A DNA stretch of 64,000 nucleotides. Origin: Prochlorococcus sp. AG-412-P08. GTDB taxonomy: Bacteria; Cyanobacteriota; Cyanobacteriia; PCC-6307; Cyanobiaceae. The DNA is taken from NCBI GenBank assembly GCA_003214695.1, contig QCLI01000001.1:124001-188000 (forward strand). Reading direction: 5' to 3'. Numbering within the stretch: the first letter of the stretch is position 1; each line of letters begins with the position of its first letter. The notes below the pieces were generated by a model. It was not told where the DNA came from and did not search any database. It worked only from the letters and a program-made list of their open reading frames with translations. The translations under genes were made by a program, and so were the position numbers. This document shows positions 2,842-18,229 of the stretch, piece by piece.

Positions 2842-2902
2842 TTGCTGCAAAAAACAGCTATATATACTATTTCAATCAGTCTCCTAATAATTATTGGGGG
2901 GG
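2842..2902 (+). other. ctaC: Out-of-frame N-terminal segment of ctaC (signal/first helix)
   Basis: Read from TTG 2842, this frame encodes a basic residue followed by a hydrophobic helix (LLQKTAIYTISISLLIIIGG), the expected leader of a cyanobacterial subunit II. It is preceded by GGAG at 2831-2834 with seven-base spacing. The frame ends at TAA 2917, but at the G7 run 2896-2902 it is exactly one base out of register with the main ctaC frame. With six G the two parts would read through as one protein. This is either a base error, a real mutation, or a slippage site. Confidence 0.75.
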
Positions 2903-3667
2903 ATATGGGCTTTAGATAACTTAAACCTATTACCTGTTGTTGCAAGCTCAAATGCACCTATCTACGACGAATTGTTCAATGTGCTTTTTGTTATTGGAAT
3001 AATCCTTTTTGTTGGGATGACAGGACTTGTTATTTATAGTCTGATTCGTTTTAGAAAAAAACCAGGTCAAGTTGGAGATGGCATAGCACTAGAGGACAAC
3101 CTTCCTCTTGAGATTTTCTGGACAGCTGTACCAGCAATAGTTGTTCTATTTGTTGGCCTTTATAGCTATGACATATATGAACGAATGGGGGGGATGCAAT
3201 CACTGTCGACCAACTCACATGATCACCAGTCAATGAATTCAGAAGGGAGGGTCTGGGGGGGGATTGGACTGACATCTCAAGATGACATTGAGAAAAACTC
3301 CTTACCAATGATTAATGTTGATGTCACAGCTTTGCAATTTGCATTTCTTTTTAATTATCCAGAGGGAGAAATTGTTTCTGGTGAGCTCCATGTTCCGCGT
3401 GGTCAGCCTGTCAGTCTGACAATGGAATCAAAAGATGTTATTCATGCTTTTTGGGTTCCAGAATTTCGATTAAAACAAGATGTCATACCTGGTCAACCAA
3501 CTGTCATTAACTTCACTCCTACCAAAACTGGTAAGTATCCAATAATATGCGCAGAACTTTGTGGTCCATACCATGGGGGAATGCGTTCAACTGTTGTTGT
3601 CGAAGAGCCAGAGGAATATCAAGCATGGTTCAAACAAAATTCTAAGCAAAAGGAAATGGAACTATGA
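2894..3667 (+). CDS. ctaC: Cytochrome c oxidase subunit II
   Basis: CuA-bearing subunit that takes electrons from cytochrome c or plastocyanin to subunit I. Two membrane helices are seen (about 25-50 and 71-96), followed by a periplasmic cupredoxin domain. The CuA ligands are complete: a His in VIHAFWVPEF and the block CAELCGPYHGGM. The long in-frame ORF can only start at TTG 2894, directly inside a G7 run and without its own ribosome-binding site. The true N-terminus is probably the segment at 2842 in the adjacent frame. The insert at about 97-137 (Gly/Ser/His-rich) holds further G7 and G8 runs. The stop codon overlaps the ATG of ctaD (ATGA). Confidence 0.93.
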   Translation: MGGIWALDNLNLLPVVASSNAPIYDELFNVLFVIGIILFVGMTGLVIYSLIRFRKKPGQVGDGIALEDNLPLEIFWTAVPAIVVLFVGLYSYDIYERMGGMQSLSTNSHDHQSMNSEGRVWGGIGLTSQDDIEKNSLPMINVDVTALQFAFLFNYPEGEIVSGELHVPRGQPVSLTMESKDVIHAFWVPEFRLKQDVIPGQPTVINFTPTKTGKYPIICAELCGPYHGGMRSTVVVEEPEEYQAWFKQNSKQKEMEL

Positions 3668-17560: not shown

Positions 17561-17764
17561 CTTGGAAACTTTTAAGATTTTAAAGACTATTGAGCTATTA
17601 CTTTAAACATATTTTTTCCACTTCTCCCATACATATCATGCCTTTAATTAACAGGAAGACTTTTCTAATGTGAGCCCCTAAGATATTCACAAGATTAAAA
17701 AACTCAGGAAAACTTAAACTTAGACTTAGCAAGTTAGACATTCTGATTATCCCCCCTCTATAAA

Positions 17765-18229
17765 TTGGAAGAATCAAATAAAAAACCTTCTTCTTTATCA
17801 AATTGCCTTAATCAATTAAAAACTGAATGGAAACAAAACAAAAATGTTGCAGCATTATGGCAAGACTGGTCCAAGATAGCTGGAGACAAGCTTTCACCCC
17901 ACTGCAAGCCTTTAACTTTTCAAGGCGGAGTCCTAACTGTTGGAGCTCAACATCCCCAATGGAGACAAGCATTAATTTTCAACCGAAATCAATTAATAGC
18001 TGCACTTAGGGCACAAGGCCACATCATCAAGGATCTAAGAATCAAGCAATACTACCCGCAAAAAACACTTCTTAAGGAAGACGAAAAAGTTATATGGGCT
18101 AATCATCCAAGCAGATGGGACGTTCACGGGAAAACAATTTGTCCAATATGCAAGGCTCCTTCTCCTGCCGGTGAGATCTCTCTATGGAAAAAGTGCGGGC
18201 TGTGCCGAAGGAAAGATCTCTCCAGTTAG
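17765..18229 (+). CDS. DUF721/DciA-like protein with C-terminal zinc ribbon
   Basis: 154 residues. Residues 10-95 form the DUF721 domain (LWQDWSKIAGDKLSPHCKP, then VLTVGAQHPQWRQAL), the family that includes DciA, the ancestral loader of the replicative helicase DnaB. The C-terminus has C126-C129 and C144-C147, a probable zinc-binding ribbon. Start TTG 17765 is the only one consistent with the N-terminus; upstream is a CCCCCC run at 17751-17756. It is divergent from birA and convergent with menG. Confidence 0.8.
   Translation: MEESNKKPSSLSNCLNQLKTEWKQNKNVAALWQDWSKIAGDKLSPHCKPLTFQGGVLTVGAQHPQWRQALIFNRNQLIAALRAQGHIIKDLRIKQYYPQKTLLKEDEKVIWANHPSRWDVHGKTICPICKAPSPAGEISLWKKCGLCRRKDLSS

Follow-up and report, generated by a model that had tools for sequence, protein, structure and literature searches.

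The window analysed here, a stretch of 64,000 nucleotides of Prochlorococcus sp. AG-412-P08, carries on its + strand the gene for subunit II of cytochrome c oxidase, ctaC, in two pieces that lie one base out of register. As the first-pass annotation had proposed, the offset falls at a run of seven G (positions 2896-2902, read directly; context CTAATAATTATT-GGGGGGG-ATATGGGC), with the leader in frame 1 and the main ctaC frame in frame 2. Read from the TTG at 2842, frame 1 gives MLQKTAIYTISISLLIIIGGDMGFR-stop; it encodes the leader, MLQKTAIYTISISLLIIIGG, and closes shortly 3' of the run (DMGFR-stop). The 20 leader codons (2842-2901, + strand), which in relatives are in frame with ctaC, specify an N-terminal hydrophobic segment (Kyte-Doolittle 19-residue mean of up to 2.17). 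The start assigned earlier to the leader, TTG 2842 with a GGAG ribosome-binding site (2831-2834, + strand) seven bases before it, can be read directly in the sequence and lines up with the TTG, GTG or ATG start of the homologues; the GGAG motif is also present before the start in three relatives (L003, L004 and L005). The main frame as assembled begins at the run and extends from 2894 to 3667 (257 amino acids; stop codon at 3665-3667), and no plausible start or Shine-Dalgarno site was seen for it upstream of the run, in agreement with the earlier statement that the long frame lacks a ribosome-binding site and starts at the run. Two other candidate starts were rejected: the ATG at 2829 lies in the third frame, which closes just after the run, and the TTG at 2894, at the run itself, is without a ribosome-binding site. 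Removal of one G produces an open frame of 279 codons, against 258 codons as assembled, and the earlier claim that the protein is whole with six G is borne out both by this reading and by an intact relative with six G (L004, below). Two more runs within ctaC (+ strand) are in frame, a G7 at 3187-3193 (ERM-GG-M), where relatives have identical codons or synonymous variants, and a G8 at 3255-3262 (RVW-GG-I), found by run listing and a frame check.

The main frame matches TIGR02866 at 154.5 bits (cutoff 147.7) and hence belongs to subunit II; translation and domain search also place in it the COX2_TM (PF02790, 45.1 bits) and COX2 (PF00116, 45.3 bits) families, the latter being the Cu-A cupredoxin domain. 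COX2_TM occupies residues 13-94 of the main frame, and both it and the Cu-A domain are whole. What is severed is the hydrophobic leader; the two canonical helices of subunit II lie 3' of it and remain intact. The prediction that the oxidase would lose its first helix therefore holds for the N-terminal hydrophobic segment, but not for the two canonical helices. In its two domains, its ctaC-ctaD-ctaE order and its hydrophobic leader the locus resembles the cytochrome c oxidase subunit II (CtaC/CoxB) genes of other marine picocyanobacteria, from which it differs only in the one-base offset between the leader and the main frame.

The comparison with relatives drew on 12 congeneric genomes and on 80 loci from a collection with one genome per species, seven being shared as judged by contig name and position, so that about 85 distinct genomes were covered. 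In the 12 congeneric genomes carrying the gene ctaC is a single open frame (274-285 amino acids, against 258 here), and in the fetched loci the start codon, the leader and a Gly-Gly turn align in one frame with ctaC. In none of the approximately 85 other picocyanobacterial genomes were the leader and ctaC found out of register, and no relative without the leader was found, although the first-pass annotation had considered that the homologues might all lack it. The relatives do differ in the length of the run. The closest (L003, 96% protein identity; ATTGGGGGAATA) reads ATT GGG GGA ATA TGG, a G5 followed by A, whereas L004 (91% protein identity; ATTGGGGGGATA) reads ATT GGG GGG ATA TGG, a G6 that is in frame, one G fewer than the window and in the closest comparable relative. 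Two others (L035 and L052) have a G7 at the same place and yet are in frame, the neighbouring codon beginning or ending in G, so a G7 by itself is not a break. Sequence comparison thus indicates that the window carries one inserted G relative to its nearest relatives, an indel confined to the homopolymer and absent from close relatives. The 20 leader codons show 3, 5 and 4 silent differences from those of L003, L004 and L005, respectively, and one amino-acid-changing difference from each; because the differences are almost only silent, the leader has evidently been constrained until very recently, and the gene was either broken a very short time ago or is not truly broken at all. At the in-frame G7 (3187) and G8 (3255) of ctaC, relatives vary by substitution and not by length wherever the site could be matched. 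A scan of ctaA, B, C, D and E for frame changes (84-99 loci) flagged only the ctaC of the window and one ctaA, the latter broken at a T run (L079, about 2535-2560, - strand) in the single-cell assembly AG-402-K14. An exact search of viral contigs for the G6 and G7 versions gave no match.

The window genome is in 52 contigs, the smallest of 2002 bp, is 82.8% complete, and has as its nearest named relatives the single cells Prochlorococcus AG-436-K22 and AG-402-G10; from its fragmentation, smallest contig and nearest relatives, it looks like a single amplified genome from a workflow in which MDA or WGA-X is followed by Illumina sequencing and SPAdes assembly, contigs of more than 2,000 bp being kept (PMC6122165, PMC5519541). 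The benchmark of this workflow gave 3.0 indels per 100 kb (PMC6122165), which predicts 1.92 indels for 64 kb and about 46 for the whole genome, although this rate may be too high here, since Prochlorococcus single-cell assemblies tended toward the fewest indels among the benchmark strains (PMC5519541). When further frame breaks were sought against the reading frames of relatives in 54.7 kb of the window, ctaC was the only convincing case, and a single convincing break in about 54.7 kb fits the published error rate. Phi29 polymerase is common to PTA and MDA. In PTA, another form of single-cell amplification, most indel artefacts are insertions of C or T at long homopolymers (PMC10504672), and a C insertion is an extra G when seen from the other strand, as fits the window. 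The break resembles a single-cell amplification artefact in that a homopolymer has gained one base and the assembly has the hallmarks of a single amplified genome; the cited signature is nevertheless from PTA and not from MDA or WGA-X, and the window is known from assembled sequence.

As a control, we examined G/C runs of at least seven bases in six genomes and classified each ourselves according to whether it lay in one open frame or separated two that a one-base change would join. By this classification, 6 of the 94 runs in four fragmented genomes (G000, G005, G009 and G012) were frame-breaking, whereas none of the 63 in two near-complete genomes (G001 and G003) clearly was, a difference that is marginal and post hoc (one-sided Fisher p = 0.043). 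The six breaks are ctaC in the window, gmk, icd and a long repeat protein in G012, and priA and larB in G005; the repeat-protein break (L160, G012) is only probable. Three further cases were read as natural and not counted, namely one run each in G001 and G003, at the end of a gene, and one in G009 (L152), where one gene ends and another follows. The gene for guanylate kinase, gmk, is split at a C8 run (L158:2597-3173, - strand) and leaves an open frame of 135 amino acids in G012 against 185-255 elsewhere in an orthologue search; the other congeners with a gmk gene have it unbroken. Likewise, icd, for NADP-isocitrate dehydrogenase, is split at a G10 run (L168:870-2292, + strand), with an open frame of 369 against 474-499 in the others by the same search, and its orthologue in G005 (L131) has a G9 in frame. 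In gmk, as in icd, the two halves align to successive portions of a single Pfam family. In G005, the N-terminus of larB is split off at a G7 run (L117:602-1310, - strand; 207 against 221-231 in the others, orthologue search), and the C-terminus of priA is thrown out of frame by a G11 (L137:1197-1207, + strand), where the window genome has a G10 in frame (L104). With gmk, icd, larB and priA, and with the ctaA mentioned above, homopolymer breaks similar to that of ctaC do occur in like assemblies, and biology offers no easy explanation for a living cell whose guanylate kinase is broken.

The offset is present in the assembled sequence, but the extra G is very probably an insertion artefact that is absent from the DNA of the cell. 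We favour an error because the relative with G6 is intact, because no relative is without the leader, because like breaks occur in fragmented assemblies and because about two indels are predicted per 64 kb. The ctaC of the cell would then probably be an ordinary continuous frame from TTG 2842, encoding first the leader helix and then the two-helix and Cu-A portions. The additional G would have been inserted into a G6 homopolymer, during single-cell whole-genome amplification (by an early slip of a phi29-type polymerase that was then propagated), during library PCR or during assembly. Of the explanations that the first-pass annotation had left side by side, slippage, phase variation and sequencing error, it is thus the last that the comparisons favour, while the first two found no support.

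A real and very recent insertion of one base, private to the sampled cell or to its close kin, seems unlikely. Such a mutation would be deleterious, leaving a leaderless CtaC that is probably inserted poorly into the membrane. Real slippage is likeliest in homopolymers, a single cell carries mutations that selection has not yet met, and the otherwise conserved leader codons are as expected of a new break. However, a cell taken at random should very seldom carry a recent loss within a core oxidase gene, whereas at the published error rate an assembly this large would contain tens of indels, and sister assemblies are broken in a similar manner in genes that a cell presumably needs to live, among them that for guanylate kinase. 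It is much less probable still that the G7 is real and tolerated, with RNA polymerase or the ribosome skipping one G to yield some full-length CtaC, and we think equally little of a G7 fixed in the species with CtaC made by one-base slippage at the run, an arrangement under which a core respiratory enzyme would, surprisingly, depend on slippage. Laboratory experiments have demonstrated that frameshifts can be bypassed at homopolymers 3-8 bases long, including those of G and C (PMC3812077), and the window shares with programmed or adventitious bypass the anatomy of a homopolymer joining two frames of one gene; it differs in that the out-of-frame state is kept in no relative among approximately 85 genomes. 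Moreover, recoding here needs one base to be dropped, but transcriptional deletions in E. coli and Buchnera are rarely in homopolymers, insertions prevailing in A/T runs (PMC5574713). No finding here calls for a mechanism of this kind. Least probable of all, and scarcely credible, is phase variation, with the run serving as a contingency switch that turns the oxidase on and off reversibly. A slipped-strand switch usually consists of a G run at the N-terminus of the gene, and the ctaC run has this anatomy. The run is short, however, and instead of the variation between in-frame and out-of-frame lengths expected of a contingency locus, the window stands alone in being out of frame in a between-species comparison with approximately 85 other genomes; every other genome tested keeps the site in frame, including the two with an in-frame G7 (L035 and L052), and the G8 and the other G7 of ctaC are in frame and vary by substitution and not by length. 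A literature search for phase variation at homopolymeric runs in Prochlorococcus found no relevant report. For homopolymer frame breaks in fragmented single-cell assemblies in general, a check against sister genomes and against the indel rate of the workflow should come before a pseudogene, phase variation or recoding is read into them.

The other candidate breaks in the window were rejected. Those at about 11.2, 14.4 and 28.1 kb lie outside real genes or antisense to them, and that at 17.75 kb sits at the start of a small gene, a start whose position is uncertain. At the latter place (window 17740-17770) there is a C6 at or just 5' of the start of the small gene, where G005 (L240) has a C9 followed by T5; this may be a variable non-coding run, the start of the gene being uncertain. 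The genome holds 19 G/C runs of at least seven bases, 11 of them on contig C1 and 8 in the window, so that a run of seven is in itself nothing unusual here. Long runs elsewhere in the genome may coincide with contig ends. The runs are clustered, 8 of the 19 lying within the 64 kb of the window, between 2896 and 47106 (binomial p = 4e-7).
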